A DNA stretch of 64,000 nucleotides, from positions 1-64,000 of the forward strand of contig JAFXZF010000100.1 of assembly GCA_017541365.1 (NCBI GenBank), read 5' to 3'. Position numbers and translations under genes: made by a program. A model generated the notes under the pieces. It was given only the letters and a program-made list of their open reading frames with translations, was not told the origin of the DNA and did not search any database. Shown in pieces: positions 29,724-52,297 of this stretch; within the stretch, counting starts at the first letter, position 1; every line of letters begins with the position of its first letter. This DNA is from Prevotella sp. (GTDB taxonomy: Bacteria; Bacteroidota; Bacteroidia; Bacteroidales; Bacteroidaceae).

Positions 29724-32700
29724 ATGGCATTGAATAGACACGAAGTAAAAAAAACACAGAGAATGCGACGTCTGTTGGCGATATTATATTGTGGTATCAT
29801 CGCCGCTGTGGTGCACGCTCAGAGCACACTGATAATAGGCGGCAATGTTTACGGAGGAGGTAACAACGGTGATACTGGCGGCAGTAGTAAGGTAAACATC
29901 TACGGCGGCGACATACATCATGTATATGGCGGAGCACGAATGGCTGACGTCGGCGGCAGTGCATTTGTGAATATCGATGGTGCGAACAGTCTTGCGTCTT
30001 ATATCATCATCGACCAGGTTTGCGGTGGTAATGATATCTCGGGTCACATAGGCTCGTCTGGCGCTCTCCCTGACGAACTGACGCAGAAGACCGCTTGCGG
30101 CATCGACAGCACATGGAACACCTTCGTGCGCACTTCTTCAGGTACAGGAGTAGGCGCGACGAAGATATTCATCGGTCGTGTCTTTGGCGGCGGCAATGGC
30201 GACTATAACTATTCTTTTACGCGCGCGACGGGTATTTACTCTATCACGGACAAGAAGACGGGTGAAGTGATAGCAACTTCGGATGCTGAATTCTATGTGC
30301 CTGATGTTGCGAAGACTTATTTGGAGATTCTTGGCGGTACCATCGACCAGCTCTATGGTGGCGGTAATAATGCCACTATCACTGACAGTACGGTTATCTG
30401 CTTCGATAACACCAGTACGGTGGTGACAAGCATAGAGGATTCTGTTGGTAATGAACTCCTTACTCATGCTCGTCTGCACAGAATGGGGGTCAACACTGCT
30501 ACGTCTTATGTCAGCAGTACTGATTTCCAGGTAGGTCGCTGCTATGGTGGCAACAATCTGGCTGAGATGCACATCCAGCCTAAGTGGTTCCTCAATGACG
30601 GTGGCATACGCCATCTCTATAGCGGTGGTAACCGTGGTGATATGACCAGTCCTTACGGTCTGCTGCTCGAAATTCCAGCTACCTCAACCATCAAGGTTGA
30701 CAACCTCTATGGCGGCTGTCGTATGGCTGATGTCAAACCTACCGTCAACGGCGAATACAAGCCTGTTGCCAACCTTCCAGGCTATAACTTCCCACCTGAG
30801 CTCTCTGCCCGTGTGCTTGTCAAGGGTGGAGACATCAATCATGTCTATGGCGGCAACGATATCACCGGCCGAGTATATGGCGGTAGTGCCGTAGGTATCT
30901 ACACCTCAGTGCGTGGCGACGTCTATGGCGGAGGTAACGGTTCTTACCCTTATACCGACAACGATAAGCTTCAGAACACCCTCGAATATGGCGACCTGTA
31001 CTACGAGCCGGGCGCTAACTCAGCAGAGGCTCTTAACAACTTCCGTCCTAATGCCGAGCAGGTGTCTATACGTCTGGCTGGTGAAAGTGCTGAAAATCCT
31101 ACCTACATCGGTGGTTCAGTATATTGCGGTGGTAACAGTGCCTCACTCAAGACCAACAAGTCAAAGCCAAAGGTGGAGCTGAAGATAGGCTCTTACGTTG
31201 TTGCCGAGAATGTGTTCCTTGGCAATAACGGAGAAAATATCATAAAGTATAATGCAAAAGACAAGGACGAGGAAGGTCACGATGCTCCTGGTACGCCAGA
31301 GGGTGTGCTCTACACTATGCAGAGAACCGACATCCCAGAGTTGGAAGGCACCAAGTTCAGTTCGCTCAACCTTGAGACTCCTGCCACCTTCGAGGCATAC
31401 ATGCAGGGTGTTGCAATGCCATTGTTGCCAAACGTGGTGTTTGACGACGAGGCTAAGGGCGACCCAGAGACATACATCCCTTATACAGCGCTCATCGGCT
31501 CATTCTTCTGCGGTGGTAATGTGGGTAGTATGTCGGCTCCTGGCACCATTGACCTCAACGATGTCAACTCTGTCCGTATATATAATAAGTTCGTAGGCGG
31601 ATGTAATGATGCCTATGTGCCAGCCCACGCTGGTTTCAATGCAGAGTGTAACGGCGGATTCACCGTAGAGTCTCATCCTAAGATTAATGTTAACCTTAAC
31701 GGTCTGAAGCTCTGCCCGCTTAAGCTCGAAAGAGACCTCGACGGCAAGCCTACAGGAATGGCTTGGAATCTTGATGAGACTACTTACAGTACGAAGCGTT
31801 ACGTAGGTGCCAATATCTATGGCGGATGCTACAACAGCGGACATATCAACGGCGATGTGGTAATCAACATCAATGAATCTACCGTAAATAAGCAGAAACT
31901 CTTTGAGGATGATTACTTCAATATCTTTGGCGAAGAAACTGACGTGCGGTTACCCAAAGCCGGCGTTAGCTTCGATGAGCAGCGCGAGGAGATATTCATC
32001 ACCAGTCTGGGCATCTTCGGTGCAGGCTATGGTTTGGACTCCGAGATTTGGGGTTCTACCACCCTCAACTTCAACAACGGCTATAACTTCCTCGTATTCG
32101 GTGGAGGTGAGAAGGGTGCTGTAGGTAAGAAGAACGGTGAAGGCAATTACGTCTATGATGCCAAATACAGCACATACGTCAACCTGAAGGGTACCAACGC
32201 AGGCACAGCCGACGGTACCAACATCCCTGCAGCAGAGTATATCTATGCAGGCGGTTTCGAGGGGCTCGTGGCTGGCGACACCTACATGAACCTTGGCAAC
32301 GGACGCGTCAACGCTTCCTTCGGTGGATCATGTAACGCTGACATTCTCGGTCATGCTGAGACCATCATTGGTAAGGGCGGCTACCCTTACGTAGTGGAAG
32401 ACGTATATGGAGCTAACGACCTCGGCGGACGCATCAGGGGTGAGGCTGACTTTAAATCTAAGGTGCGCGAGGGCGCGCGCGCGTTGATGCACAACGGTGG
32501 TGCTCCTGCCACGGCATCCGCTTACGTAGAATACCTACAGGGACGGGTCCGCAACATCTTTGGCGGCTGTTATGGTAAGTACGATTATTCTATAAGAGAG
32601 GGAAAACCAGCTTACAAGGATACAATCAATGTTGACGTAGATGGATATGTAAGACAAGTCCTCGCTCCTTACATTCCAAATGCCTTCGTATATGTGCATC

Positions 32701-35700
32701 CAGAACAGAATGTCAACAACAGCGTAGCTGGTATATTCGGTGCAGGTGAGGGCGATACCAACTATGGAGATGACGGCAAGACTCCAAAGGGTTCCGACCC
32801 TATAGGCGATATGCTGCAAGACCGCAGCTATGTGCTCGTGGATATCCCGGAGGGCTACCTCAACCTCAAGAGCACAGATATATATGGTGCCGGCTCGTAC
32901 AACGGAGTAGGTATGTGGATTCCTAAGGCTACAGCCGACGCTCCTGCTACTGCCGACCAGGCTTCGGCTATCGTTGATCTTATCAGTGGTGATATAAGCG
33001 CAGCCCATGGTGGTGGTTATGAAGAGGGACTCACACGCCGAACAGTGGTCAACGTGCCTGAAGGCTCTATCGTCAAGGCAGACAAGATATTCGGTGGTGC
33101 AGAGGGAACATCGGTTCACAAAGTGTGTGACGTATATGAGAGTCACGTAAACTACAATAGTGAGACGGCTACAGCAGGCACTCTCTATGGTGGTAACGAT
33201 GCTTTCCGCCAGACACTGTATGCTCACGTTGACGTAACCACACCAGTATGGTCTGACAAGGCTAAGGGCTACAAGGCTACAGTATATGGTTCAGGCTACG
33301 GTCTCGACACATGGGCTAACTACACCGAGGTGAACCTCAAGCCAAATGCTAACCCAGAGAAGGATGGCGCAATAGTATATGAGGTATATGGTGGTGGCGA
33401 GATGGGTCGTGTTGCTAATGTTGCCACTGCAGCAAAGGTAGCTGATGTCAGTGGCAGCAGTCTGCCAGACCTGCCTAACGGCTATGGTGATGCAGAGCAC
33501 CACGCAACAGGCTTGGCTGACGCTATGGCAAAAGTGCGTCTCGACGGCTTGAAGCACAACACCAACGTACTCATCCATAAGGGTGCTACAGTAGAGAACT
33601 ACGCCTATGGCGGCGGTCGTGGCTATGACGACGAAAACTTCGGCGACGGCGACGTAAACGGTACTACATACATAGCCCTCATGGGTGGTACGGTGAAGAA
33701 GGATATCTATGCAGCAGGCACCATAGGTGCTGTGCTCGACGAGTTCGGCGGTCTCACCGACTATAGAGACGAACCATTTGTAGCCGATGCTACAGCCTAC
33801 ATAGCGGGCGGTTCTACCCGTAACGTCTATGGCGGCGGCTGGAAGGGCAGCGTAGGTAAGCATAAGAAGCAGGAAGGAGATGTATGGGTAGATGCAGCTA
33901 TCAGCGATATACCTGACGGCTCTACCGTAATTGACATCCCAGGCACAACCCACGTATATGTGGGCATACGCAATGACCAGAGCGATGCTAACAAACTTGC
34001 AACCGTGAAGGCTGTATTGGGTGAGAGTGCTACTCTGAGCGACTACGGTTTCTATGCAGGTGTGCCAACCGTTCAGCGTAACGTATATGGCGGTGGTGAA
34101 GGTGGTGCAGTGTTTGGCACTACTAACGTAGAACAGAACTATGGCTATATAGGTTATGTATATAATGAATCAGAGGATAAATACGAGGAGAAACTCGATG
34201 ATGAGACCTGGACAGACCACGTAGGTAAGAATCGTCTGTTAGGTAGTGGTAACATCTTCGGCGGTGGATATATCGACAACAGTAGTGTTGACTCCACCAA
34301 CGTGAAGATGTATGGCGGCTATGTACGTAACAGTCTCTTCGGTGGTGGCGAGATCGCTGCTATCGGACGTGGTGACGTTACCGTCGGTGGCTATCAGAAC
34401 AGTGAGCGCATCCTCAACCAGATATATAAATATGGTAAGACACAGGTGGAGCTGATTAACGGCAACGTGCTGCGTGACGTCTTCGCTGGCGGTAAAGGTT
34501 ACGACAACCTCGGCAGGGTAGGTACCCTCTACACCGACGGCTATGTATTCGGACAGACTGAGGCTCACGTTCATGGCGGTATTGTAGGTACTGCAGAAAA
34601 CTATGACGAAGGCTACGGCAACGTATTCGGCGGTGGCGACCTCGGCTATGTCTATGGTAAAGGTCATCGTGACACCGTGCATCCCGGACCTTCACCTGAC
34701 CACTTCTACTATGTTGATGGCGAAGGTCACTGGACTGAGGACTGTAAGGTGGTAGTAGAGCCTTGGGCACAGGTGAAGGCAGATAGCGTAACCATCGGTG
34801 GTGACACTTACAATGAGTACGAATATGTGCCAACGGACAAGTTGAACCTCCTGAAGGGTAAGAACGATGACGTTGACAAGTATATTTGGGCTAAGCTCGA
34901 CGATAGCGGTATCATTATCCGTAACGCTGTCTTTGGTGGTGGTAACGTAGCAGACGGTTCTGAAAAGGTGTATGCTAACACCAAGACCGTCTTCGGTAAT
35001 GTGACTGCAGCAGTGCGTGACGTATATCGCAGAGACCTCATCACCATTGGTACTGAGCACGTCGGCGGACTCTATGGCGGTGGTAACCTCTCGCTCGTTG
35101 ACGGCTATCGTGAGCTGCATATAGCCAACTACGGTACTGACTACTACGGTTTGCAACAGGAAATCTCAATGGATCAGTATAACAACCTGACCGACCGTGA
35201 GCGTGCTTATTTCCGTCTGCGCTATACCTGTAAGCAGACATATCCTGGAGGCAAGGATTCTCAGGGTATCACTTACGAGGGACACAGTAAGGGCGAAGAG
35301 ATATTCGATGAAGAATATAACATGCTGCCTGAAGGATTTAAGACTGGGGAGTACTGGAGTCAGGATGGTGTCTGCTCTATCTATGCAGGCAGACTGCTTA
35401 ACACCTTGCAGCGTGCCGATCTCGTAGGTGTGCTTGGCTCGCGTATGGTGCTGCAGGGAGCTCCTGACCGTGTAACCGACGTGCAGGATAAGCAGAACTA
35501 TACCATCAACCGTATAGGTGAACTGTCACTGAAGAAGACTATATCACCAGCTGGCGAACTTGATGAGACTAACAAGGAGCACGGCAACTACTTCGGCATC
35601 TACAGTATGGTGAACTACTTAGGTAACCTTACCAGTGACGTGCTGATGAGTGAGACACGTACTACAGACTCAGAAGATGCTGATGGCAAGAGTTATCACG

Positions 35701-38700
35701 ACTGGAAGGCATACAACAAGACCAACAAAAAACGTAACACTGCTACATGTCACAACCAGGTGGCATTGGCTTCAGGTGTGTTCCTCGAACTGGTTAAAGA
35801 ACCAGAGTCAGGCTCTGCTACGGAGAAGAACTACGGCTACATCACTGGTGTGGTAGAGCTCGACCTTATCAATGCTAAGGCTGACGCTATAGGTGGTGGC
35901 TATGTATATGCTAAGAATGAGCATGGTGCACGTTCTGACTCTGGCGAGACATTGACAACATTGTCTCCATATAACACAAGTGCAGGTCTTCGTACATATA
36001 GGATGTACACATATAATGAGAACTCTCTTGAGGATATACAGACATCAGGTAACTTCATACATGGTAAGAAGAAGACCATTATCGACGACTGTTACCCACA
36101 CAACCTTGCGTATGATGTAACCAAGAGCCCGTACTCAAAGGCTCACTACTGGTATATCAAGGGTAGCATATACATCTATGACCAGATTATAAACGCATAT
36201 ACAGGTGCACCAACAGCATATACTAAGGAGACTCATATACCTGTCACCATCACTGCTGGCGCTCACGGTCAGCTGAAACTGGTTGACATTAAGCAGAACA
36301 AGTATGCTTACTACAACCCTGACGGTGTTACTCCTCTTAGTGCAAGTGACACTATCAAGGTAAACAATAATAGTGTGTCATTCGGCAGAAATGACGTAAT
36401 AAGCTATTGGGACTGGAGTCAGTTGCCAGCTACCGAGCGGGTTCTCTTCGTAGATACTACATACGTTCAAATTGTAGAAAACGAAGTAACAGCTGTTGCA
36501 CTGGAGCCTGGCGAGGGTACAGGATGGCACATGTCTAACAACATCAGCCACAACACTGGTTATGTGCTCGACTTCAAGATGGATACACCTCCTGCTTGGA
36601 ATACATGGTACTCAGAGATAGAAGGCACGGATTCGGCTAGTACTGCAAGATATGACGGTATGGATGCTTCCACAAAGGCTCGCTATATTCCAGGTCCTAC
36701 ATACAGCACCAGCGAGGGTGGAGTATTCGGTCAGCGCACTTATACTGTTGGAGAGATTGTTCCTTACGATGTGGTTAACAGTTACCATGATCCTGGTACA
36801 ACTGGCCAGGCAAAAGTAGAAGTTGCTTATGTGGCATCTGAGGCTGTAAGCTACGAATATGATGATACTCCGAAGAGCGTAAGTGCCGGAACACCTATCC
36901 CATATTCAGAGTGGGACGCTATCACTGACGCCGCGGTAAAGAATAAGTTCGGCACAGCCAAGATGTGTATAAGCACATTGAGACTGAATGAACAGACATA
37001 CATAGTATATGGTGACCTGCTCAATGCTACAGACATTGCTACGCTGAAGACGGCATTCCCAAGCCAGACAGCGGCTATAGATGCTGCACTCACTCCTGCT
37101 CACGTATGTTCTTCAGAGGGACTGTATGGCGGTACAAGCTACGCTGCAGGAAACAAGTATGATGCAATCAAGGGTTGGGCTTCACTGACCTCAGGAGACC
37201 GTGCAAAGAATAAGTTCTCATTCAACTACGACGGTCTTGACGTGCTTATAGATCCTAAGTACTCAGGCGATATGAGTAAGTATCATCATCCGTATGATCA
37301 GACGCAGTCGGTAGAATACGTGGCAATCTACAATGGCGCCGAAGATTACGTTTCACCAGCAGGTGAACTCAACAAAACAATTCATGTGGGTGATACATTG
37401 TCACGTACTGAGTACGAGACACTTTGGAATGAGAAGTATCACTACACTGCTGTGGTTGTATCAACGACCGAGGAAACTGGTGATGACTACTATATAGCCA
37501 AGAAGGACTTCGCCCGTGGTAATATAGCTTACGCTAAGGGACAGGTAATACCTTCTGGCACATACCGCGCCCTCTCTGCAGACGAGCGTACCGAACTGAT
37601 TCAGGTTCTCACGTTTACTAACACAACGGAAAATCCTGTTACCTATTACTATTGTCGCGATAACTATGATGGTCAAACATCAGTAACCAATCGCAATGAT
37701 GGTGGAACGGTTGACACTGACGATCATGGCACTGGTACAAACGTAGAGGCGGGCTGGGTTATCGATGCTACCGATTTTGGTAGGTTGAAGAACAACCAGT
37801 TGAACTATCTCATCAAGGGTGAAGAGCCTACGGAGTCTTCTACTCTCTATGTTAGCCGCGAAAGCAACATTGAGGATCTCTCTAAGGAGAAGATTATCTC
37901 TGTGATGTATCAATACACCTACAATGAGAGTGGTGACGACAGCAGCGAGTCAACACTCGTCAACGAGATGCACATCGTCAATGTTCACATCAAGTTTGAG
38001 AGTGGTGCACCTATCATCGAGCCGCTGCTGCCACCAGCAACAGTATTGCCTGGCACTACAGTGGGTATGAACCAGCCAAAGGTAACACCGGGAGCTTACG
38101 AACTCATCGGTGGCGGATGGGAGATATACAGCAACGAGACGGATGCTAACCTGCATCGCAACGGTCAGGAGTATATCAACAACAACACACCTATGTACTG
38201 GTATCAGGATGATTACTACGTATCTTACTACGCTAAGAGCTACATGGGTAAGACATACTCTAACCCTGTGCAGTTCTCTGTTGCCAACTATCACGACCTC
38301 AAGACCGTGCTGGAGGCTAAGGAGCATCACTATTACATCGACCATCAGGATGCACACATCGGAGGAAAGAAGCGTCGTCCAAAGATTTATATCAATGACT
38401 ACAGCGCTACAAGTGAGAACGGTCTCGACCTCTTGAAGAATCTCTATGATTTGAGCCTCATCACTAAGTCAACGCCTGGCACTACCTTCAATGGCGATAC
38501 CATCAAGAGTGGTACGTTCAACGGTCATCTGCTGCTCAACAGCAGAGTGGCAGGTGCCAATGACCTTGACATCATCTTCCGTACCAACATCAGGCATTCT
38601 GCCCATTGGACGTCAATCGGTGATGAAACCCATTGCTTCGGAGGCAACATTCATGGTGACGGTCACTATGTGAGCGCACTTGACAACTCGCTCTTCGGCA

Positions 38701-40928: not shown

Positions 40929-40978
40929 TAGATTATAGGTGATAGATTATAGATGATAGATAATAGATAAGAGATGAT
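40926..40978 (+). repeat. GATAGATTATAG-type tandem repeat between the giant genes
   Basis: Units of 10-14 bases (GATAGATTATAGGT, GATAGATTATAGAT, GATAGATAATAG) run from the stop codon of the first giant gene to the start of the second. A related repeat occupies the spacer at 55652-55704. Confidence 0.8.
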
Positions 40979-43900
40979 AGAGAAGATTATAACATTTTTG
41001 GGCAAAGAGTCCCCCTATACAGGGGGATTTAGAGGGTCCTTAATTTTAGTCCTCCTGCTTCTCGCAGTGGGCACTAAGGCATGGGCGGATGACTACTCAG
41101 GAACGTACTATATAGCCAATCACAATAGTGGCAGTTACTCCGATGGTTCAAACGATAACTTCTACATGGTGCCAGCCAAAGACCCTCAGCAGACGAACTA
41201 TAATGATGCCTATTATTCGGCGAATTACAGTCTCACAAAGGGTGACCCAGAAACACCATTCATTACGACCTATAAGACCGTTCGTGACAACAACTCTATC
41301 TGGCAGATAGTGTCTGCTGGTGGTGGCTATTACTATATCAAGCACTGGCTTACGGGCAAGTATCTTATTTACATGCCTGCATATACAGGCACTAAAATTC
41401 AAAGAAAAGCTGTCCATCTTGTTGCTACTGATACTCCAGATAATTTTGACTCTAAGTTTGACATTCAGGTCAGTAGTACAGGCGTATCAATACGCCCGAT
41501 AAGCCTATCCTCAGGTAATCGTTACCTTAATCCTGCCAGTGGTAACAAAACTACTTATTATGGTCAGAATCCTCCAGACTACTATGGTGGTTTGGTAGGT
41601 GTATATAACAGCGCTACTGATGGTGGCTCTATTTGGTATTTGGAAGATGCAGTGCTACCGCCATCATTCAGTGTCAGTGCTTCTGGCGATATTTCAATAA
41701 CAGCAGAGGATGGTACGACCATATATTACACCACTAATGGCACAACACCCACAACATCAAGCACCGAATACAGTGGTGCCATCACTCCAACAGCAGGAAT
41801 GACAGCCATCAAGGCTATTGCTGCTCGCACAAGTGATACCAGCAAAAAGTCGAATGCCGTGAGTCTGCCATTGCACACCTACACCTATTATATTATTAAC
41901 CGTGCTGGCGACATAGCCATAAAGAAAGAGGTGACACAGTCTGAGGGTAAGACTCTCAGCACCATAGAGGATATTCCTGCTGACATCCGCAGTAGCTATC
42001 TCGCTGATGAGTCTGCATCTTTCTATTCTTTCAGCGAACCTTACACATCTATTGACCAGTTGACAGATGAGGTAGAAATTACCGAAACTCCGTCGGCAAA
42101 TGCTCCCATATACGTAACATATACCACAGATCATCTCTCAGAGAAATTCTTACATCTGCGTGGCGCTCGTGCTTTCAATATCAAGAATCTGAGTAATGAA
42201 TGTGCTTATGATGGTAATAATGGCACTCTTGCCTATGAGAATGCTAACAACACCCAACCTTCTCACTTGTGGAACATAGGTGGCAGTGAAGACCCTTATG
42301 ATGTGCAGATAAAGAATGTTGACACAGAGCATCGCTATCTCGTGTTCTCAACACCTCCTACACTCGCTCTCGCTGCTACTGCAACCACTAAGTTCATCAT
42401 TATGGCTGGTAGTGCAAATGGTGATGGTTCTACCTATGAGCAGATAAAACTCATGGCTGTCACAGGAACTGGTGCTAATGATTTCTCAAAGGCAGAGGTT
42501 AAGGTATATAATGTAAATTTATCCTTTACATACAAACTCATTGACCGTAAAGGAAAACTTATTGAGAGCATTTCAAATAACGAGTCAGAGTTGAAGTTGC
42601 CTAACGAATGGATAAGTCCGTTGGTTTCAGAATACCATTTCTACAGGACTGCAAGTATTGATGGTGACACTTACACCTTAAGCAACCCTGTTACCAGTAC
42701 ATTCGATGTGGGAAGCGGAAATTCAATATATGTAAACTACGATGTCAGCGATAGGATTGACCTTGACGGTCTGAATAGCCTGAACGTTGAGGACAAGGAC
42801 AATAAGACCTACATGCTGAGATTCCTTGATGGTGAGAATTTTTATCAGGAGAATGGCAGTGATGGCATTATGACAGAAAAACGTAAGGCTGTATATCCTT
42901 ACAACAATGGTGATGTCACCCTCTATGTGTATGGTAATGAGCGTTGGGATGCTCAGTTGGCACAGGGCGCCAGCACCCGTTCTCGTTGGCTTTGGTATAT
43001 AGAGCCAGCGAACAATCCTGCAAACAAGGCAGAACTTGACCCGTACCATGTAAATATAGTATCTTATCAAGATCATATTTTTAAAGATAAAGATGGTAAT
43101 GAGTTAGGTAGATATCGCTCCTTCCTGCGCACATATAAGCCAGAAGGATATGCTAATGTTGTGACAAGCGTAATCAACAGCAATCCTCTTACTAATGGAG
43201 GTAATTATGGTGACGCCCCTTATACCGATCTTGCCACAGAATATATGATTCTTGGTACGTCGAGCCACACTCGTCTTGTTACGTTCAGTGCTGTCGAGGG
43301 TGAACGTCGTACTGTCAACAGCTTCGAGCAATATTGGAAGAACAGACCTACGGTACAAGGAATATTGTCATCAGGAAACAAGGTGACGACAGAAGGACGC
43401 AATGTGACACTTACATCTGCGCAGAAGACAGAGATAGCGGAAGAAGGCTGGCATGTTTATACAGCATGGGCATATTCTGCTCCATGGATAAACAATAAGT
43501 CTGGTACTACAGAGACTAATAAGCAATACCTGAATGAAGAGCATGCCTTCCAGACCATCAGTATGGGTACAGGAAACTTTGTATTTGAGGAAGTAAGCCT
43601 TGAACCACAGGTGATTCTTTTAGACAATCACGGATGGGAAGTGGTGCGTATTCCTCTCTCAAAGACTGACATATTGAGTACCTATAACAGCCCTATGGTC
43701 GAGCAATACCAGTGGTATTCTACATCAGATAAAGTTCCAGGCTATCATAAGTATAATGTAAGTGGGGACCCTGCCCGTACAACCACGTCGCTCTCTGACG
43801 TATCAGGTGTTCCGGAGAAAGCACCTGACTACTATGTCACCTATACGGTTAAATCACGCTATGCTACGGCATATAAGGGTGCCGCTAAGGCAGCTGACAC

Positions 43901-46900
43901 CAAGGCTTCAGCCTACCTGTTGAAGCAGGGTGGTAAATATGCCAAGACCTCAGGCTCAACCATTGACAAGACCGATGCGCCTGCCGAAGATGTTCCAGAA
44001 GATATGCAGTGGTACCTGAAACCTAACTTCGACATCGACCGCGAGATGGGTTATATATATCAGGGTGAGACTGGTGCTAATGAATCTGCGAAGACTAAGG
44101 ATGCTACTGAGCAAGACTATTATGATGCTGGCAAAAACGGTTTCGACCCATATAATGTTCAGATACAGAACAGGGAGTACGATAAGCGTTACTTTACTAC
44201 CAACTCTTCTGCAATGTCGCTTAATAGTGGTATATGGACAGGTAACTCTACTCAGGTAATTATGCAGAACCTTAATGTCAAGCAACATGCTACGGGGTAT
44301 GACCAGACAACGCTCAACATCACCAATGCTACCTTCATGGTGGTGAGCGATGCCAACGGCAATATGCGCTTCATGCCACGTTTTGACAATACGAAGGTGA
44401 CGAACAAGGATGGAAGCGACAATCCTTTCAGAGAACTCGAAACGCAGGCTGCTGCTGCGACAACAGACGATGAAGGCAATGGTGCACAGACTCTGTGGTT
44501 AGAATTAGTCCCAGAAGCTAAGGAGATACACAGTTCATCAGAGATGACGGAGATGAATGGTCACTACATCCTTGCTGATGACTTCACTTTTGATTCCGAC
44601 TTCACCTCTCTTGGCACACCTTCTGCACCTTTCACAGGTACTATTGATGGACAACTTAACATTATAAGTAGTCCAGGTAAGGCAATAGTAGCATACGCAA
44701 ATGGAGCCCAGATATATAATCTGATACTTGATAATGTTAGTATCACGAGTGGAGGCGACCATGTAGGTGCTATATGTAATGTGGCAGATGGAAGTACACG
44801 CATATACAACTGTGGTGTAAATGGTGGTGAGATTGGTGGAACTACAAATGTGGGTGGTATCGTAGGAAAACTTGCTGGTACATCTCGTGTCATCAACTGT
44901 TACAGTTATGCTAATATTACTAGTGGCACCAACAGAGCAGGCATTGTGGGCAATAACACTGTTGCTTCTACTCAGAGCAGTTTGACCACTATGATTATGA
45001 ACTGTATGTTCTATGGTGACATCTCTAATGGTGGCACAATATCACCAATCTATGGCGGCACGGAAATAAACAATGTCGCTGGTGGTATGAATAACTATAA
45101 CTACTATCGTTACAGATCACGTTATAGTGTAGAGAAACAAATCAAAATATACAATAGAGCATTGGCGATGGAAGAGAAGTTCATCAATCGCTTCGAACGC
45201 TATCGTCTGTTGCTCAACAGTAATAAGAAACTGGCTGCAAAGTATCTAGGTATTGAACCAAATGAACTGGCAAAATGGGTACTTGAAACTGCTGACAGGT
45301 CTATTGCCGAGCCAAAGCCATATCCTGTTTTGAAGAAGCAAGGACAGTATCCATCTATCATTAACTATGATGCAGAGAATGCTCCAGACAGTACTTCGGT
45401 AGGACGCCTGAATGGTGGAAAGCTGGGAAAGACACTCGATGTAACCATTTATACGAAGAGCCAAAAGACCACAGGCGGACAGTCCTGGCCTACGGCTTCA
45501 GGAAGTGACGTGTTTACAACCAGCCTTACGCTGATTCGTACAGATAAAGACACAGTACGCTATAACTTCAACTATGATAAGGTACAGTTGCCTTACTATA
45601 ATGATATAGGTACGGGTAACTATACTGAAAACCGTGTGGTGACAGGCTGGAAGATTGTCAGCATCACACCTGATACTCCAGGTGCATATAGCGCAGCTGA
45701 TGAATGGGGCGGTTACAACTTTGCCGACCGCAAATGCACCAATAAGGATAAGTATAGCGTAAGTGGTCGTGTATTCTCACAGGGTGCTTACTGGGATGTG
45801 CCCGAGGGCGTGACGGCTATTACCATTGAGCCTTACTGGGCTATAGCCAACTATGTGTCTGATGATAAGTATGATGTTATATATCAACAAACAGGATCAG
45901 GCGGTAGCAGAAATTACGTGTCACAAGGTTTTGGATTGTTTGGTACGCAATATTCTAATAATACAGACATAGAGATATATGGTGATGGTAACAAGCAGAA
46001 AGTATATACCAGTATAGGCAATGCCCTTGCAGGTTTTGATAATACGAGCAAAACTGTATATGATCAGGCAGTGGTGTTAGTGGGTAATGTGCATCAGGCG
46101 GGAGCTCCCACAAATGCTGTGATACCTTATACGCTCATGTCGATTGATATGAACCATGATAATGAGCCTGACTATAGTTATATATTCGGACATAAAGACA
46201 GACAACCTATATCGCCTATCCGCTATGACTTCCTCAACATAATGGGTATAGCAGAGGCTCAGATACCTAATGGAGCAACAATTTTACGTAACGTGTCAAT
46301 TTTTAATCCTTTGGGTTGGTTTGAGATTACTAATACTTGTGTGGTTAATTTCTCACAGTTCGAATATGATAACAGCAACAAAAATGGAAAGTCGTCAGCT
46401 CCTTTAATACTTCTTGGAGGTACTTTTGAACAGTTCGTTTCTACAAAGGAAGCAACGCTTGACTTCACAAATAAAAAAACTCAGTATATACATGTAGGTG
46501 GCAATGCGTGGTTTGCAAAATTCGGTAATGGAACACATAGTGATGGAACAAAGTTTACACCTCATATACCTATCTCGGTAACGGGCGGAGATTATGATGA
46601 GTTCTATCTGTCAGGTACTTTTCAGCCAAACATAACTAATATGCAATCTGACAATGCGGAGTGTTATATCAGTGGAGGTCGTTTCGGTGAAATGGCTGGT
46701 GCTTCTTTGGAAGCAATCTGGGGTGATGTACGATGGGATATAGACTGGGCGGATATAACGAACTTCTATGGTGGAGGCGTGAATGCTGTAAATCCTATCA
46801 CTGGTAATATTAGGGTTGACATGACTCGTAGTCATGTAGAACGTTATTGTGGCGGTCCTAAGTTTGGTGATATGTCAGTAAATAAGACTGTTACAACTAA

Positions 46901-49900
46901 TGCCACCGATTGTACCTTCGGCACTTACTTTGGAGCAGGATATGGAGGTAATTCATATAACAGAGTAAAATATCGTGACGAAGCAGAAAAAGAGCCAGCC
47001 ACATACCAAGAGCTTTATGCAACAGACCGTGGTAATTATTATGATGGAGGAACTACAGATGCGCAAAGCGGCAAAAACTATGGTAAAAAAGGTAAGGGTG
47101 TAGCTACAGACTTTGACTATGAGTATTTTATTTGGTCAACAGGTCAAACAGGTGCACGTTTCTATGTGCAGTTCGTTACGTTCTCACTAGCTACTACACT
47201 TGGTGTAAGTTCCAATCTGACAGACTGTACAGTAACAGGCAATTTCTATGGTGGCGGTAGTTTGGGTAAGGTTGATGGTCCTGCCACTTCTATCCTGACA
47301 GGTTGTACAGTCAAGGGCAATGTGTTCGGTGCAGGATATTCTGCTACTCTCCCAAAGATAGGTGTTCGTAATATTCCAGCATTCAAATCAGGCAAAGAAC
47401 CTCAGAAGAATATGAATATCGGTATGTTTGAGCCTGGCGAGATAAATGATACTGTACAGTATGAATGGCAACAGGTTCCTAGTATGCCTGCAAATGGTGC
47501 TGCTGGCATGGAAAGTACTTCGGCAGGTAAGTATGTATATACCGACGAAGACCTCTCAACTCTTGGAACCGTAACAGGTGATGTCACTCTGACTCTTAAT
47601 AATACTACGGTGGGTAGTGATGCTGATACCACTCTGGATCAGGGTAATGTCTTTGGCGGCGGAGAGGAGTCAAGCGTAGAAGGTAATACTACGGTGACTA
47701 TCTCTGGTGGCAATATATATGGCAGCGTATTCGGTGGAGGTGATATAGGCTCTGTGGGAAATTTCACCCTTGCTGATGCAACCTACCATGCCGCACATCC
47801 CGATGTGGCTGTAGGCAAACCTATAACTTGTGCCGCAAACACGGGTAAGTGTACTGTGACTGTCACGGGTGCAGCCAATATAGGCCATGACAACATGCAG
47901 ATGCCTGATGACTGGGGACACGTGTTCGGTGCAGGACGTGGTACTACAAGCCACGAGAAAGCTGAAAAGGTAGGTGGTAATATCGACCATGTGGCGTATG
48001 TTGATACTACTGAGGTGACAATAGGCGTACTGAATGCTGCTATTGATGCATCACCGCTCATCAAGGCTTCTGTATATGGCGGCAGTGAGAACGGTCACGT
48101 GCTGCATGGCACAAAAGTCGTGATAAACAGTGGTCAGATAGGTGTTGGCAAGAACATAGGTCGTCGCTATACCGCAGAAGAGTGGAGTAGTGGCAATCAG
48201 TTGGCTCCTTGCGCAAGCTGGGACTACGTAGAGAATGGTGATGTGTATGACCCATACGCTCCGGAAGGAGGATGGGGTGATCCGAAACTGCAGCCGGGTA
48301 ATACGACGGCTACCGACGGACATACTTATTATGGTAATGTGTTCGGTGGAGGCTCTGGCGTAATTCCTGTTGGCGCAGGCGAATGGCAGCGTGCCTCCGG
48401 ACTGGTAGAGGGCTCTACCAAGGTGATTATTAACGGCGGCCATATCCTGACAAGTGTCTATGGAGGTAATGAGCAGACTGATGTACTTGGCGAGACTTCT
48501 GTCGAGATGAATGGTGGCACAGTGGGTGTGCCTCGTGACAGTACAACCATAATGACTAACCCTGCTATCTGTTATGTATTTGGTGCAGGTAAGGGTGATA
48601 AACGTACTGCGTTCAACACATGGACGAACGTGGCGAAGTCTAACGTAACCATCAAGGGCGGCACCATCTATGGCTCTGTATATGGCGGTGGCGAGGATGG
48701 TCACGTGCTTGGCGATGCTGTAACCTCCATAGAGCAGGCAAATGAAAAGACAGTAATCATAGGATGTAACGGTAAGTCGGGCTATGACGGCAACGTGTTC
48801 GGTGGCGGTCAGGGTTCTGTTACAGCACTTACCGCTGGTGTAGTAGGTGGCAACGTTGACCTCAAGATAAAGAAGGGTCTTATGTATGGTTCTGTATATG
48901 GCGGAGGCAGACTGGCTTCTGTGGGAACCCACTTCGAGGCTCCTGACGATCCTAACTATGGTGAACTGAATAATGATGGCGGCGTGGGTAAGCACGGCAA
49001 CATATCAGTGAACCTGACTGGTGGTACGATACACCGTAATGTATTCGGTGGCGGTATGGGTACCCAGGCTGAAGTGGAGAATAAGGACAGATTGGGTATC
49101 TCAAGAAACGTATGGCTGAATCTTAACAAGGGTGTTGAAACCACAGGCGTGAAGGGCTGCGTGGTTAAGGGCAGCATATTCGGCTGTAACAATATGAACG
49201 CATCGCCTAAGGGCAAGGTTACGGTACACGTGTATGCTACGCAGAACGATGCCGCGACACAGATAACAAATGATGGAGAAGTGACTACTGCCAAGGTCGA
49301 TGGACGCTATGACGTGCAGGCTGTATATGGCGGCGGTAACATGGCGGCATACGTGCCCGATACGCTGGAAACGGCTTCTACCATCGTAATAATCGATGGT
49401 TGTGACCGTACCAGCATCAAACAGGTGTATGGCGGTGGTAACGCTGCATCGACACCTGGTACGAGCGTAACCGTCAACGGCACATACGAGATTGAAGAGG
49501 TGTTTGGCGGTGGTAATGGTAAGGATGCCATAACCATAAATGGTGTGACTAAGGATAATCCTGGTGCTAACGTGGGCTTCTACGACTATTCAGCAGTGGA
49601 AGACCAGTATCCTACCAAGGAGGACCGTGAGACGGATGAATTCGTCAATACTTACGTATATGGCACTGGCGCTGCCTCTGTGAATATCTACGGCGGAAAG
49701 ATACACCGTGTGTTTGGTGGTTCCAATACCAAGGGTAACGTGAAATCGACGGCTATAACACTGCTCGACGAAAGCAGTGGCTGTGATTTCTGCGTGGATG
49801 AGGCTTACGGTGGCGGTAAGAGTGCACCGATGGATGCCGAGGCTCGACTGCTGATGGCTTGTATCCCAGGATTGCAGGCAGTATATGGTGGTGCTGAGGC

Positions 49901-50606
49901 TGCCGATGTACATGGTGATGTGACGCTGAACATTACCAACGGAACATTCAAGCGTGTGTTTGGTGGCAACAACAAGAGCGGTACCATCAGCGGCGCCATA
50001 AAGGTGAACATCGAAGAGGTAGGCTGTCGTCCTATCATCATAGGCGAACTCTATGGTGGTGGTAACCTTGCTCCTTACTCTGTAAAGGGATATAATGATG
50101 ATGGTTCTATCAAGGAGGAAGGTGCAGATATCTATGCTGACCCGCAGGTAAACCTCAAAGCATTTACCAGCATAGGAAGTGTATATGGAGGTGGATATGG
50201 TGCTTCAGCCATTATGGTGGGCAGCCCGACGGTTAACATCAATGAGGTGGTGGGTACTCCAACCAATTATCCTACTACAGGCAAGTTCGACGAGACGGGT
50301 TACAAGGGTGATACCATCACGGTGGATGACCACGAGGTGATACTCCCTGCTCATGTTAAGACAAAGATTGGTGCCATCGGCAAGGTATTCGGTGGAGGTA
50401 ATGCAGCCCAAGTTAAGGGTAGCGCCACTGTCAATATCGGCAATCTGAGCACCATCGACTTTGAATCTACTGGTGCAGGTGAGGAAACACCACGCACAGG
50501 CGTTGATGTAATTGGCGCAGACATTCGAGGCAACGTTTATGGAGGCGGCGATGCAGCCGAGGTAACTGGTGACACCAAAGTGAACATAGGAAGGAAGTCG
50601 GAGTAA
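40974..50606 (+). CDS. Giant secreted repeat protein B (3210 aa), V-Y-G-G-G repeats at the C-terminus
   Basis: After MIEKIITFLGK and a segment encoded by a palindromic element (ESPYTGGFRG) comes a signal sequence core LILVLLLLAVGTKAWA. Residues about 40-225 resemble a ricin-type beta-trefoil (YYIKHWLTGKYL, SIWYLED). A chitobiase-type domain (TIYYTTNGTTPT) follows. Three long related modules fill about 300-1090, each with a I-D-R/N-x-G-type start and a YDVQIKN or YNVQIQN segment. A GLUG-like stretch (1190-1375) and a short helical part precede an array of VYGGG/VFGGG units from about residue 1880 to the end. Unlike protein A it ends inside the array (TGDTKVNIGRKSE) with no sorting tail. Probably secreted, function unknown; likely co-transcribed with A. 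Confidence 0.83.
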   Translation: MIEKIITFLGKESPYTGGFRGSLILVLLLLAVGTKAWADDYSGTYYIANHNSGSYSDGSNDNFYMVPAKDPQQTNYNDAYYSANYSLTKGDPETPFITTYKTVRDNNSIWQIVSAGGGYYYIKHWLTGKYLIYMPAYTGTKIQRKAVHLVATDTPDNFDSKFDIQVSSTGVSIRPISLSSGNRYLNPASGNKTTYYGQNPPDYYGGLVGVYNSATDGGSIWYLEDAVLPPSFSVSASGDISITAEDGTTIYYTTNGTTPTTSSTEYSGAITPTAGMTAIKAIAARTSDTSKKSNAVSLPLHTYTYYIINRAGDIAIKKEVTQSEGKTLSTIEDIPADIRSSYLADESASFYSFSEPYTSIDQLTDEVEITETPSANAPIYVTYTTDHLSEKFLHLRGARAFNIKNLSNECAYDGNNGTLAYENANNTQPSHLWNIGGSEDPYDVQIKNVDTEHRYLVFSTPPTLALAATATTKFIIMAGSANGDGSTYEQIKLMAVTGTGANDFSKAEVKVYNVNLSFTYKLIDRKGKLIESISNNESELKLPNEWISPLVSEYHFYRTASIDGDTYTLSNPVTSTFDVGSGNSIYVNYDVSDRIDLDGLNSLNVEDKDNKTYMLRFLDGENFYQENGSDGIMTEKRKAVYPYNNGDVTLYVYGNERWDAQLAQGASTRSRWLWYIEPANNPANKAELDPYHVNIVSYQDHIFKDKDGNELGRYRSFLRTYKPEGYANVVTSVINSNPLTNGGNYGDAPYTDLATEYMILGTSSHTRLVTFSAVEGERRTVNSFEQYWKNRPTVQGILSSGNKVTTEGRNVTLTSAQKTEIAEEGWHVYTAWAYSAPWINNKSGTTETNKQYLNEEHAFQTISMGTGNFVFEEVSLEPQVILLDNHGWEVVRIPLSKTDILSTYNSPMVEQYQWYSTSDKVPGYHKYNVSGDPARTTTSLSDVSGVPEKAPDYYVTYTVKSRYATAYKGAAKAADTKASAYLLKQGGKYAKTSGSTIDKTDAPAEDVPEDMQWYLKPNFDIDREMGYIYQGETGANESAKTKDATEQDYYDAGKNGFDPYNVQIQNREYDKRYFTTNSSAMSLNSGIWTGNSTQVIMQNLNVKQHATGYDQTTLNITNATFMVVSDANGNMRFMPRFDNTKVTNKDGSDNPFRELETQAAAATTDDEGNGAQTLWLELVPEAKEIHSSSEMTEMNGHYILADDFTFDSDFTSLGTPSAPFTGTIDGQLNIISSPGKAIVAYANGAQIYNLILDNVSITSGGDHVGAICNVADGSTRIYNCGVNGGEIGGTTNVGGIVGKLAGTSRVINCYSYANITSGTNRAGIVGNNTVASTQSSLTTMIMNCMFYGDISNGGTISPIYGGTEINNVAGGMNNYNYYRYRSRYSVEKQIKIYNRALAMEEKFINRFERYRLLLNSNKKLAAKYLGIEPNELAKWVLETADRSIAEPKPYPVLKKQGQYPSIINYDAENAPDSTSVGRLNGGKLGKTLDVTIYTKSQKTTGGQSWPTASGSDVFTTSLTLIRTDKDTVRYNFNYDKVQLPYYNDIGTGNYTENRVVTGWKIVSITPDTPGAYSAADEWGGYNFADRKCTNKDKYSVSGRVFSQGAYWDVPEGVTAITIEPYWAIANYVSDDKYDVIYQQTGSGGSRNYVSQGFGLFGTQYSNNTDIEIYGDGNKQKVYTSIGNALAGFDNTSKTVYDQAVVLVGNVHQAGAPTNAVIPYTLMSIDMNHDNEPDYSYIFGHKDRQPISPIRYDFLNIMGIAEAQIPNGATILRNVSIFNPLGWFEITNTCVVNFSQFEYDNSNKNGKSSAPLILLGGTFEQFVSTKEATLDFTNKKTQYIHVGGNAWFAKFGNGTHSDGTKFTPHIPISVTGGDYDEFYLSGTFQPNITNMQSDNAECYISGGRFGEMAGASLEAIWGDVRWDIDWADITNFYGGGVNAVNPITGNIRVDMTRSHVERYCGGPKFGDMSVNKTVTTNATDCTFGTYFGAGYGGNSYNRVKYRDEAEKEPATYQELYATDRGNYYDGGTTDAQSGKNYGKKGKGVATDFDYEYFIWSTGQTGARFYVQFVTFSLATTLGVSSNLTDCTVTGNFYGGGSLGKVDGPATSILTGCTVKGNVFGAGYSATLPKIGVRNIPAFKSGKEPQKNMNIGMFEPGEINDTVQYEWQQVPSMPANGAAGMESTSAGKYVYTDEDLSTLGTVTGDVTLTLNNTTVGSDADTTLDQGNVFGGGEESSVEGNTTVTISGGNIYGSVFGGGDIGSVGNFTLADATYHAAHPDVAVGKPITCAANTGKCTVTVTGAANIGHDNMQMPDDWGHVFGAGRGTTSHEKAEKVGGNIDHVAYVDTTEVTIGVLNAAIDASPLIKASVYGGSENGHVLHGTKVVINSGQIGVGKNIGRRYTAEEWSSGNQLAPCASWDYVENGDVYDPYAPEGGWGDPKLQPGNTTATDGHTYYGNVFGGGSGVIPVGAGEWQRASGLVEGSTKVIINGGHILTSVYGGNEQTDVLGETSVEMNGGTVGVPRDSTTIMTNPAICYVFGAGKGDKRTAFNTWTNVAKSNVTIKGGTIYGSVYGGGEDGHVLGDAVTSIEQANEKTVIIGCNGKSGYDGNVFGGGQGSVTALTAGVVGGNVDLKIKKGLMYGSVYGGGRLASVGTHFEAPDDPNYGELNNDGGVGKHGNISVNLTGGTIHRNVFGGGMGTQAEVENKDRLGISRNVWLNLNKGVETTGVKGCVVKGSIFGCNNMNASPKGKVTVHVYATQNDAATQITNDGEVTTAKVDGRYDVQAVYGGGNMAAYVPDTLETASTIVIIDGCDRTSIKQVYGGGNAASTPGTSVTVNGTYEIEEVFGGGNGKDAITINGVTKDNPGANVGFYDYSAVEDQYPTKEDRETDEFVNTYVYGTGAASVNIYGGKIHRVFGGSNTKGNVKSTAITLLDESSGCDFCVDEAYGGGKSAPMDAEARLLMACIPGLQAVYGGAEAADVHGDVTLNITNGTFKRVFGGNNKSGTISGAIKVNIEEVGCRPIIIGELYGGGNLAPYSVKGYNDDGSIKEEGADIYADPQVNLKAFTSIGSVYGGGYGASAIMVGSPTVNINEVVGTPTNYPTTGKFDETGYKGDTITVDDHEVILPAHVKTKIGAIGKVFGGGNAAQVKGSATVNIGNLSTIDFESTGAGEETPRTGVDVIGADIRGNVYGGGDAAEVTGDTKVNIGRKSE
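41006..41040 (+). repeat. Palindromic REP-like element inside the giant B gene
   Basis: CCCCCT-ATAC-AGGGGG followed by ATTTAGAGGG, read in frame as SPYTGGFRG just before the signal core. The sequence type is like dispersed palindromes found in many genomes. Confidence 0.6.
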
Positions 50607-50674: not shown

Positions 50675-52297
50675 ATGAGACAGAATATGAAGAGACTTTC
50701 AATCTTGATAGCGGTGCTATGTGTTATGACCCAGGGTGTTCAGGCACAGTTTGCATCGGCACCGGCATTCCCTGGCGCTGAGGGCTACGGACGCTACACC
50801 ACGGGTGGCAGAGGTGGTAAGGTGATTCATGTGACTCGTCTGGATGACTACATAGACAACGCTGAGTACAGCGAGGCGAAGACAAAGGACGACCGCAAGC
50901 AGTACGAGGGTACGCTGCGCTATGCGCTGAGCGAGAGGGGTCCTCGCATTGTGGTGTTCGACGTGGCTGGCACGATAGAGCTGAAATGTCCGCTGCGCAT
51001 CAAGGAGAACGATGTGACGATACTGGGACAGACGGCACCTGGTGACGGCATCTGCCTGAAGAACTATACTGTGGGCATCAATGCTAACAACGTGATAATA
51101 CGCTATATACGTTGTCGTATGGGTGATGAGGGTAAGCGTTACTGGAAGGGTGACGAGAAACTCGCTAACCCAGCCTTTGAGGATGACGCGATGAACTCAT
51201 ACCACAAGGACGGTCAGGAGTGCAGCAACATCATCATCGACCACTGCTCGCTGTCATGGTGTGTGGATGAGTGCGGCACGTTCTATGGCAACAAGGAGTT
51301 CACACTGCAGTGGTGCATACTGTCGGAGTCACTGCGTATGTCGGTGCACGACAAGGGTGCTCACGGATATGGTGGTATATGGGGTGGTGCACAGGCAACT
51401 TTCCACCACAACCTGCTGGCTGACCACGACTCACGCAACCCACGCTTCGACCATGGTTACGTAAACTCACTGCCTGGTCCTGTGGACTATATTAATAATG
51501 TGGTGTATAACTGGGGCAGCAACTCCAGCTACGGTGGTGAGACATTCGCCGACGCTGAGGCGAAGAAGTTCAACATGGTAAACAACTACTACAAGGCGGG
51601 TCCTGCCACGAAGCAGAACACCAAGTCACGCCTGCTCAATCCAACGGCATACTGTGGCAACTGCAACAAAGCGAAGCCTGCTGACGTAAAGCCAGGACAA
51701 TTCTATATGAAGGGCAACGTGGCTGAGGGATTCCCCGTTGTAGCTAAGAACAACTATGCTACGGCGGCTATCGCTTTCGACAAAAAGAGTGGTGTGCCTC
51801 CGATTGCTAAGATGTATGAGCTCTTCGCTCATGGTGAGGCTCCGTTCCCAGCTCTCGATGGCAAGTTCGGCTATAACACGGTGAGCACGCAGACGGCAGA
51901 GAAGGCATTTGAGAAGGTACTTGCCCATGCTGGCGCATCATACAAGCGTGATGCAGTGGATGAGCGTGTGACAAGCGAGGCAAAGTCGGGCACATACAAA
52001 TATGAGGGCTCGCACGGCTCTACGGGTGGTATGATTGATACCCCAAGTGATGTAGGCGGATGGCCAGTGCTCAAGGGTACCGCAGAACTTGACAGCGATA
52101 AGGACGGCATACCTGACAGTTGGGAGAAGGCTCACGGCCTCGACCCAAATGCTGATAATGCTGCTACCTTCACCCTCGACAAGAAGGGCTACTACACCGA
52201 CCTCGAAGTGTATGCCAACTACCTTGTACAGGACATCACAAAGGCTGAGCGTGCCGACACAAAGGTGACATTTGAAGAGTATTATCCGATAAAGTAA
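50675..52297 (+). CDS. Pectate lyase (PL1), single domain, secreted
   Basis: The 540-aa protein has a signal peptide (MKRLSILIAVLCVMTQGVQAQ from residue 5, cleaved near 25; split here: core LSILIAVLCVMTQG). The start FPGAEGYGRYTTGGRGGK is the hallmark of this PL1 subfamily. The beta-helix shows GTLRYALSERGPRIVVFDVAG, IIIDHCSLSWCVDE and HDSRNPRFDHGY; the second arginine of R-x-P-x-x-R is replaced, as is usual in this subfamily. Near the C-terminus a calcium-binding thrombospondin type 3-like piece, DSDKDGIPDSWEKAHG, is present. There is no T9SS tail, so it may be periplasmic or processed differently from the three large lyases. It has its own promoter and a strong terminator. Confidence 0.93.
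   Translation: MRQNMKRLSILIAVLCVMTQGVQAQFASAPAFPGAEGYGRYTTGGRGGKVIHVTRLDDYIDNAEYSEAKTKDDRKQYEGTLRYALSERGPRIVVFDVAGTIELKCPLRIKENDVTILGQTAPGDGICLKNYTVGINANNVIIRYIRCRMGDEGKRYWKGDEKLANPAFEDDAMNSYHKDGQECSNIIIDHCSLSWCVDECGTFYGNKEFTLQWCILSESLRMSVHDKGAHGYGGIWGGAQATFHHNLLADHDSRNPRFDHGYVNSLPGPVDYINNVVYNWGSNSSYGGETFADAEAKKFNMVNNYYKAGPATKQNTKSRLLNPTAYCGNCNKAKPADVKPGQFYMKGNVAEGFPVVAKNNYATAAIAFDKKSGVPPIAKMYELFAHGEAPFPALDGKFGYNTVSTQTAEKAFEKVLAHAGASYKRDAVDERVTSEAKSGTYKYEGSHGSTGGMIDTPSDVGGWPVLKGTAELDSDKDGIPDSWEKAHGLDPNADNAATFTLDKKGYYTDLEVYANYLVQDITKAERADTKVTFEEYYPIK

Follow-up and report, generated by a model that had tools for sequence, protein, structure and literature searches.

Why should two adjacent genes encode giant proteins that carry the same kind of repeat array, the first at its start and the second at its end? 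The question is raised by a stretch of 64,000 nucleotides of Prevotella sp. DNA (GenBank assembly GCA_017541365.1, contig JAFXZF010000100.1; hereafter the window), in which an initial annotation had noticed two adjacent giant open reading frames (ORFs) with V-Y/F-G-G-G arrays in this layout. We confirmed the arrangement. Protein A (29766..40928; 3720 amino acids, with an alternative ATG possible at 29724) and protein B (40974..50606; 3210 amino acids) both lie on the + strand and are separated by 45 bases; the start at 29766 agrees with a database copy of A, P0121. The answer that we favor, by a slight balance of probability, is that A and B are exported separately and form parts of a single, continuous beta-solenoid fiber on the surface, A being the anchor segment and B the outer segment. 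Three observations stand behind this reading: the two proteins have conserved complementary ends, they are neighbors and occur together, and fused and split forms exist that share one break point.

To define the arrays, we counted the motif [VIA][YF]G[GA][GCN]. It occurs 18 times in A (residues 28-1722; shuffle mean 0.35, maximum 2) and 19 times in B (residues 2117-3188; shuffle mean 0.27, maximum 3), with 300 shuffles in each case. The description of the arrays needs one correction, as both are irregular and contain numerous insertions. In A, the array region spans residues 19-1785 (29820..35120) and follows an N-terminal Sec signal peptide (residues 1-18, 29766..29819; by eye, with a predicted helix at residues 2-16). 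In B, the array covers about residues 2090-3210 (47241..50603). Residues 1-495 of A were modeled as a beta-solenoid with a predicted local distance difference test score (pLDDT) of 93.5 and a predicted template modeling score (pTM) of 0.91, and a strand at residues 23-29 comes directly after the signal peptide, in the predicted open start coil (29820..29865). Residues 2720-3210 of B were likewise modeled as a beta-solenoid (pLDDT 89.4, pTM 0.90), with a strand at positions 482-486 of the 491 modeled residues, so that the predicted open end coil (50511..50603) has its last strand 5 residues before the C-terminus and no tail. Thus, the array ends of both proteins are confidently predicted to be uncapped beta-solenoids. 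Capping of beta-helices guards against aggregation.

By prediction, the beta-solenoid class of coiled parallel beta structure fits A and B. A second structure aligner placed beta-helix chains at the top of its rows for the A and B models, and HMW1, HxuA and antigen 43 were among its rows; Foldseek alone gave no significant match (E 0.11 or worse), and neither protein matched a PDB sequence at E<=0.01. A known family matching the array was looked for in Pfam, NCBIfam and PDB sequences, and no sequence family matched. Searches of an open-access library, judged by the titles and abstract starts listed, gave no account of V-Y/F-G-G-G repeat proteins.

The complementary ends are conserved. Among 7995 scored proteins, 2287 were B homologues, and in the best 120 of these the last motif lay at most 45 residues from the C-terminus in 115 and 14-23 residues from it in 99. 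The five outliers (P0069, P0075, P0082, P0084 and P0093) have ends that look frame-shifted or cut by eye, as do at least four of the 115 conforming proteins (P0030, P0045, P0046 and P0088). Because an array end without a tail is the conserved state, truncation or misassembly of B was rejected. For A, 1960 of 2039 scored proteins were homologues at E<=0.001, and a motif lay near the start in all of the best 120. The presumed mature start was taken as the residue following the A in an AQ-type site, and 117 of the 120 were scorable; in these, the first motif followed after 7 residues in 103 and after 9-14 residues in 14; the distance in the A of the window is 9. The sum across the B end and the A start is 5+14+7 = 26 residues (28 for the window's own A), and the distribution of coil spacings breaks off sharply below 25-26. 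In terms of conservation, the start piece of A reached 3.42 bits and the end coil of B 3.23 bits, compared with 1.7 to 3.6 for inner pieces and 1.21 for the signal peptide of A. The end coils of A and B are thus conserved like inner coils, unlike the signal peptide of A.

We then asked how A and B are distributed. Named relatives include a Prevotella metagenome-assembled genome from yak reticulum and Prevotellaceae bacterium UBA2738, and a genus sample was formed from 120 genomes of the genus of UBA2738. The A probe matched 39 of these genomes: 28 hold A itself, as judged from the position and length of the ORF (in G076 and G084 it is broken), and the remaining 11 hold tails or one-piece paralogues. 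A was present in 23/23 genus genomes with a match to the B middle domain at E<=1e-28, in a screen that excluded weaker GLUG-like matches and scored three candidates per genome. Among the 29 A loci inspected in this sample, 7 break off no more than about 1.1 kb past A. The other 22 are usable, and 21 of them have B-type ORFs downstream of A, on the same strand and within about 5 kb; in three of the loci (G039, G069 C53 and G121) the contig stops before the array of the downstream B-type ORF. In G118, the B-type ORFs lie on a different contig from A. The wider samples gave A matches in 45/301 genomes of the family and 5/295 of the order (G001 in both). From these we took 47 stretches downstream of A, set aside 5 shorter than 5.5 kb, and found one or more array ORFs on the strand of A in 38 of the other 42; L108 is included for a single motif where its contig stops, and L106 for an ORF of 320 residues 8 kb downstream.

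Over both surveys, 59 of the 64 loci with enough sequence have B-type or array ORFs after A, some of them cut by a contig end. The five exceptions include the G118 genome; the other four, L102 (G310), L125 (G397), L130 (G161) and L142 (G623), have no array ORF after A and B-like sequence elsewhere in the genome, in G161 a fragment of 264 residues only. In G009, G074 and G100 the contig ends after A, and B-like sequence again lies elsewhere in each genome; a search for B-like sequence gave no match in G042, G097, G105 and G114, in each of which the contig stops right after A. Independent occurrence of A and B was not seen in the genomes examined.

In some relatives B is encoded as a stub plus a middle piece, so that the fiber would consist of three pieces (stub, middle and anchor), and the B of the window corresponds to the fused form. 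To describe these forms, we sorted the array ORFs at the surveyed loci and in the window by a heuristic. Complete ORFs with other domains first and the array last numbered 55, and 23 had the array first and other sequence or a tail last. Eight had an array at both ends; by eye one of them, in L136, is a head, so that 7 count as middle pieces. Nine array-first ORFs were cut at the end. Six of these nine are middle pieces, and the others are the A of G114, a frame-shifted piece of L110 and the head of L133 (counted as such, despite the heuristic's array-start call, with its first motif at residue 1513). Two ORFs fell outside these classes (in G069 C53, an A whose start is longer; in L103, an ORF of 2507 residues), and 9 more were cut at one end; in L131-L134 the head extends out of the fetched stretch. 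Middle pieces reach 6,789 residues. Their ends resemble those of whole B proteins, as expected by descent, and we did not use this as evidence.

Defining a stub as a head with five array motifs or fewer, we found a middle ORF that starts in an array and has its own signal peptide (by eye) at 13 of 14 stub loci versus 0 of 40 long-array loci (Fisher 1.3e-11, for loci some of which are related, e.g., the close kin G034 and L113). In this count L110 was excluded for a frame shift seen by eye, L106 was included, and G076 (7 motifs, cut) was placed in neither group. The matches of seven stubs (from G024, G069, G034, G020, G118 and two from G015) end at one place: at residues 1179-1181 of the fused protein of G092 and 2424-2426 of that of G085 (6/7 each), at 2354 in G052 (4/7), and at residue 2261 (6/7) or 2262 (1/7) in the B of the window. 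Residue 2261 (47754..47756) marks the break point within some 10-15 residues; the stubs continue 9-16 residues beyond the match to the window's B, or 35 in G020. The start of the G024 middle piece aligns to the same coil of the fused G092 protein at which the stubs end, and by eye no linker or relic signal peptide is present at the break point in the fused proteins of G092, G085 and G052. A quick tree was built from 74 A rows; short C-terminal pieces only were available for 46 of these. On this tree, the split label (14 loci, including L110, versus 36) required 12 changes, at least 8 of them forced by supported branches, and it clustered no more than shuffled labels did. Thus, fission or fusion took place repeatedly, unless genes were transferred between lineages. 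As a separate observation, G069 holds three separate A-B loci (L029, L030, and L031 with L032), one of the split kind.

These data bear on another explanation, in which A and B act independently, as surface or secreted proteins whose common solenoid repeat reflects descent; they would lie side by side for one purpose and use their arrays as spacers or ligand-binding stalks that never join. The repeats are alike, some loci contain extra array-ending proteins, and coil integrity alone could account for the phase of the ends, all of which would fit independence. Left unexplained, however, are the confinement of the middle piece to stub loci, the fused forms with the same break point, and the conservation of the open ends at the level of inner coils. 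We regard this explanation as unlikely, though worth serious consideration.

Additional information on the start of A comes from five one-piece ORFs with open frames of 4110-6307 residues (G001, G010, G003, G073 and G113; L065, L066, L067, L068 and L073). These one-piece giants have a long array in mid-chain, followed by middle and C-terminal parts of the A type and a tail by eye. A matches them from residue about 278 or 357 on, and their array continues upstream of the place of the signal peptide in A. Because the paralogous array runs on upstream there, the one-piece giants support a start of A that was cut through a longer array; they do not support the B side. The N-terminal parts of these giants are GLUG-like by eye, those of two of them gave no Pfam match, and homology between the pre-array domains of B and those of the paralogues was not shown by hhalign. 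Separately, we observed a further giant family (L069, L070, L071 and L072; 2,953 to over 4,650 residues) that shares the second domain region of B (about residues 300-1180) and lacks the array.

How would the two proteins reach the surface? The initial annotation had assigned A a type IX-like tail, and by eye its C-terminal region (40479..40925) carries a type-A-like sorting tail; the family model did not recognize it in the window. By eye, nearly all of the best 120 A homologues have tails of the form G-V-Y-I-V ... K-like (P0127 is a partial record). TIGR04183 matched the tail region of A in 3/3 relatives, once above the cut-off (3.4e-6) and twice below it (1.8e-4 and 1.9e-4), and PF18962 matched none of four A tails (the window and three relatives). 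In its signal peptide and in the tails of its relatives, A therefore resembles type A cargo of the type IX system. B and the middle pieces differ in having a signal peptide without a known sorting tail: Pfam and NCBIfam searches with the last 100 residues of B found nothing at E<=1, and hence no C-terminal domain (CTD) model, and by eye a sorting tail is absent from all of the best 120 B homologue ends. SprA_N was found in 113/120 genus genomes, including 27 of the 28 with A, with a partial match in G020.

Among complete array ORFs in which other domains come first, the array forms the C-terminal end in 55 of 57. By comparison, seven array-less ORFs in the same stretches carry a short-tail motif (only array-less exported neighbors with this motif were counted), and they include proteins with the first domain of B in G037, G083 and G076. 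The motif was written after the short CTDs described in passages of a report on Prevotella intermedia (PMC11969387); four array-less neighbor tails (three of the seven and one in G034) had no NCBIfam match and so rest on the motif. With these limits, that one domain lacks a tail when joined to an array and has one when it stands without an array hints that the array end may replace the tail. The passages of PMC12618676 and PMC8545088 describe type IX cargo as carrying its own CTD, and therefore export of B with A would be new.

Alternatively, the array end of B could itself be a new kind of export or anchoring signal, for the type IX or another system, with B exported alone. The conservation of this end, the combination of a signal peptide with no known sorting tail, and the wide occurrence of SprA_N would be in line with such a signal. 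Against it, the end of B resembles inner coils, proteins that start with an array still carry an ordinary tail, and no CTD model matches the B terminus; we consider this alternative distinctly improbable.

Under the continuous-fiber reading, the outer segment B would consist of binding-type domains followed by a solenoid open at its C-terminus, and the inner segment A of a solenoid open at its mature N-terminus, followed by large domains and the type IX sorting tail. At the joint, the final coil of B would stack on the first coil of A, so that the edge strands complete one solenoid, and the tail of A would lead the fiber through the type IX translocon and fix it to the surface. The pieces may meet in the periplasm or outside. 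Relatives would build the same fiber from stub, middle and anchor, and the order tip-middle-anchor follows from which ends are open. The initial proposal of two parts of one surface structure pairing through their arrays gains comparative support from the ends, the co-occurrence, and arrays that are fused or split at a single site; that the two proteins join, that tail-less pieces travel with A across the outer membrane, and that the fiber serves attachment is what we infer. In a more general form, which we put forward only tentatively and hold to be rather doubtful, this would be a pilus-like fiber of uncapped solenoid segments, with a binding tip, an often separate shaft open at both ends and an anchor that alone carries a tail, in which the tail-less segments ride with the anchor through the type IX translocon. 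Stacking between segments would be end to end and always in the same coil phase, and repeats of the shaft segment might even make the fibers variable in length.

Such an assembly would differ from the closest known systems. In donor-strand fimbriae, tip, shaft and anchor subunits complete one another's beta structure, and the subunits are small and exchange one strand, whereas A and B would stack whole solenoid ends. The two-partner-secreted and autotransporter beta-helix adhesins HMW1, HxuA and antigen 43 are also long exported beta-solenoids. Adhesins of this kind are single polypeptides with their own transporter or barrel, whereas here the solenoid would come in two or three pieces, with a tail of the type IX kind; no N-terminal TPS domain was found in A or B (Pfam, E<=0.1). 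The Ca2+-dependent beta-helical antifreeze protein 3p4g differs in that PDB sequences gave no match and Foldseek nothing significant, and a shared fold says nothing about function. The bactofilin BacM, a beta-helix protein for which a head-to-tail polymer is proposed in passages of one report (PMC4372379), provides a precedent for head-to-tail joining of beta-helices; it is described there as one small intracellular subunit, in contrast to giant, unlike, exported pieces in an apparently fixed order, and Pfam found no bactofilin domain in A or B (E<=0.1).

Several results weigh against a continuous fiber. L106 has a stub without a middle piece, array ends outnumber array starts in G015, L107, L111 and L112, and some B proteins have a Pro-rich extension past the last coil. 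That all ends share a phase could follow simply from the need for any solenoid to finish on a coil boundary. The pre-array domain of the one-piece giants could not be linked to that of B by hhalign, which covered three of these five proteins. Neither TIGR04183 nor PF18962 recognized the tail of A in the window (E<=1). The absence of the short-tail motif from array-ending ORFs (0/73) is partly circular, because a long tail would not fit where the last motif lies at most 55 residues from the end, and the count concerns the short-tail motif only. Finally, we know of no established type IX route in which a tail-less protein is exported with a tailed partner. If the continuous-fiber reading is true, stacking of open solenoid ends would add another principle of bacterial surface fibers to donor-strand exchange and pilin packing, the type IX system could carry passengers without a sorting tail, and some thousands of unnamed giant proteins in Prevotella-like bacteria would gain a frame.

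The remainder of the two proteins offers few known domains. The middle and C-terminal regions of A (35121..40478), common to the one-piece giant paralogues, are without a Pfam family; a Pfam search of all of A (E<=0.1) found none, and NCBIfam gave a single weak match far below the cut-off. B begins with a signal peptide without a lipobox (residues 1-38, 40974..41087; by eye). The only matches above Pfam cut-offs in B are CHB_HEX_C_1 and Fn3_assoc at about residues 231-291 (chitobiase C-terminal/Fn3-associated domain, 41664..41846; PF13290, 1.5e-10; PF13287, 1.5e-9). Of the domains that the initial annotation had placed first in B, the chitobiase-type one is thus present; the lectin-like one is not, as PF14200 occurs in some homologues only and not in the B of the window. 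A weak match to the end of Peptidase_M26_N (44631..44825; PF05342, E 0.0025) is below the cut-off.

The genes around A and B raised another possibility, namely that the pair attaches cells to pectin alongside the neighboring pectate lyases. Three proteins with pectate-lyase domains, two of them with CBM77, are encoded upstream of A; downstream of B lies a protein of 540 residues without a strong Pfam match, and the other neighbors are mostly housekeeping genes. The 540-residue protein is lyase-like by eye, with no such Pfam match, and other giants in G001 and G010 also have neighbors that resemble the window's lyases, which would favor a link to pectin. However, a tblastn search (E<=1e-12) of the surroundings of the 29 A loci, with 8-19 kb upstream covered for 20 of them, found matches to the pectate-lyase genes of the window near A and B at one locus only, G010, 15 kb beyond B, and Pfam detected no pectate-lyase or pectin-binding module in A or B. 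Attachment to pectin or the plant cell wall, as first suggested, is therefore not supported, and we think it very unlikely.

Some smaller observations concern these neighbors. The downstream protein (50675-52297) is exported and has only a sub-threshold TSP3 match in Pfam. In G001 and G010, the gene after a one-piece giant resembles the pectate lyases of the window, and a second kind of giant has lyase-like neighbors too; in the same two genomes, a giant of the L069-L072 family adjoins a gene resembling the 50675 ORF. By eye, the gap between A and B (40929-40973) resembles a degenerate short tandem repeat.
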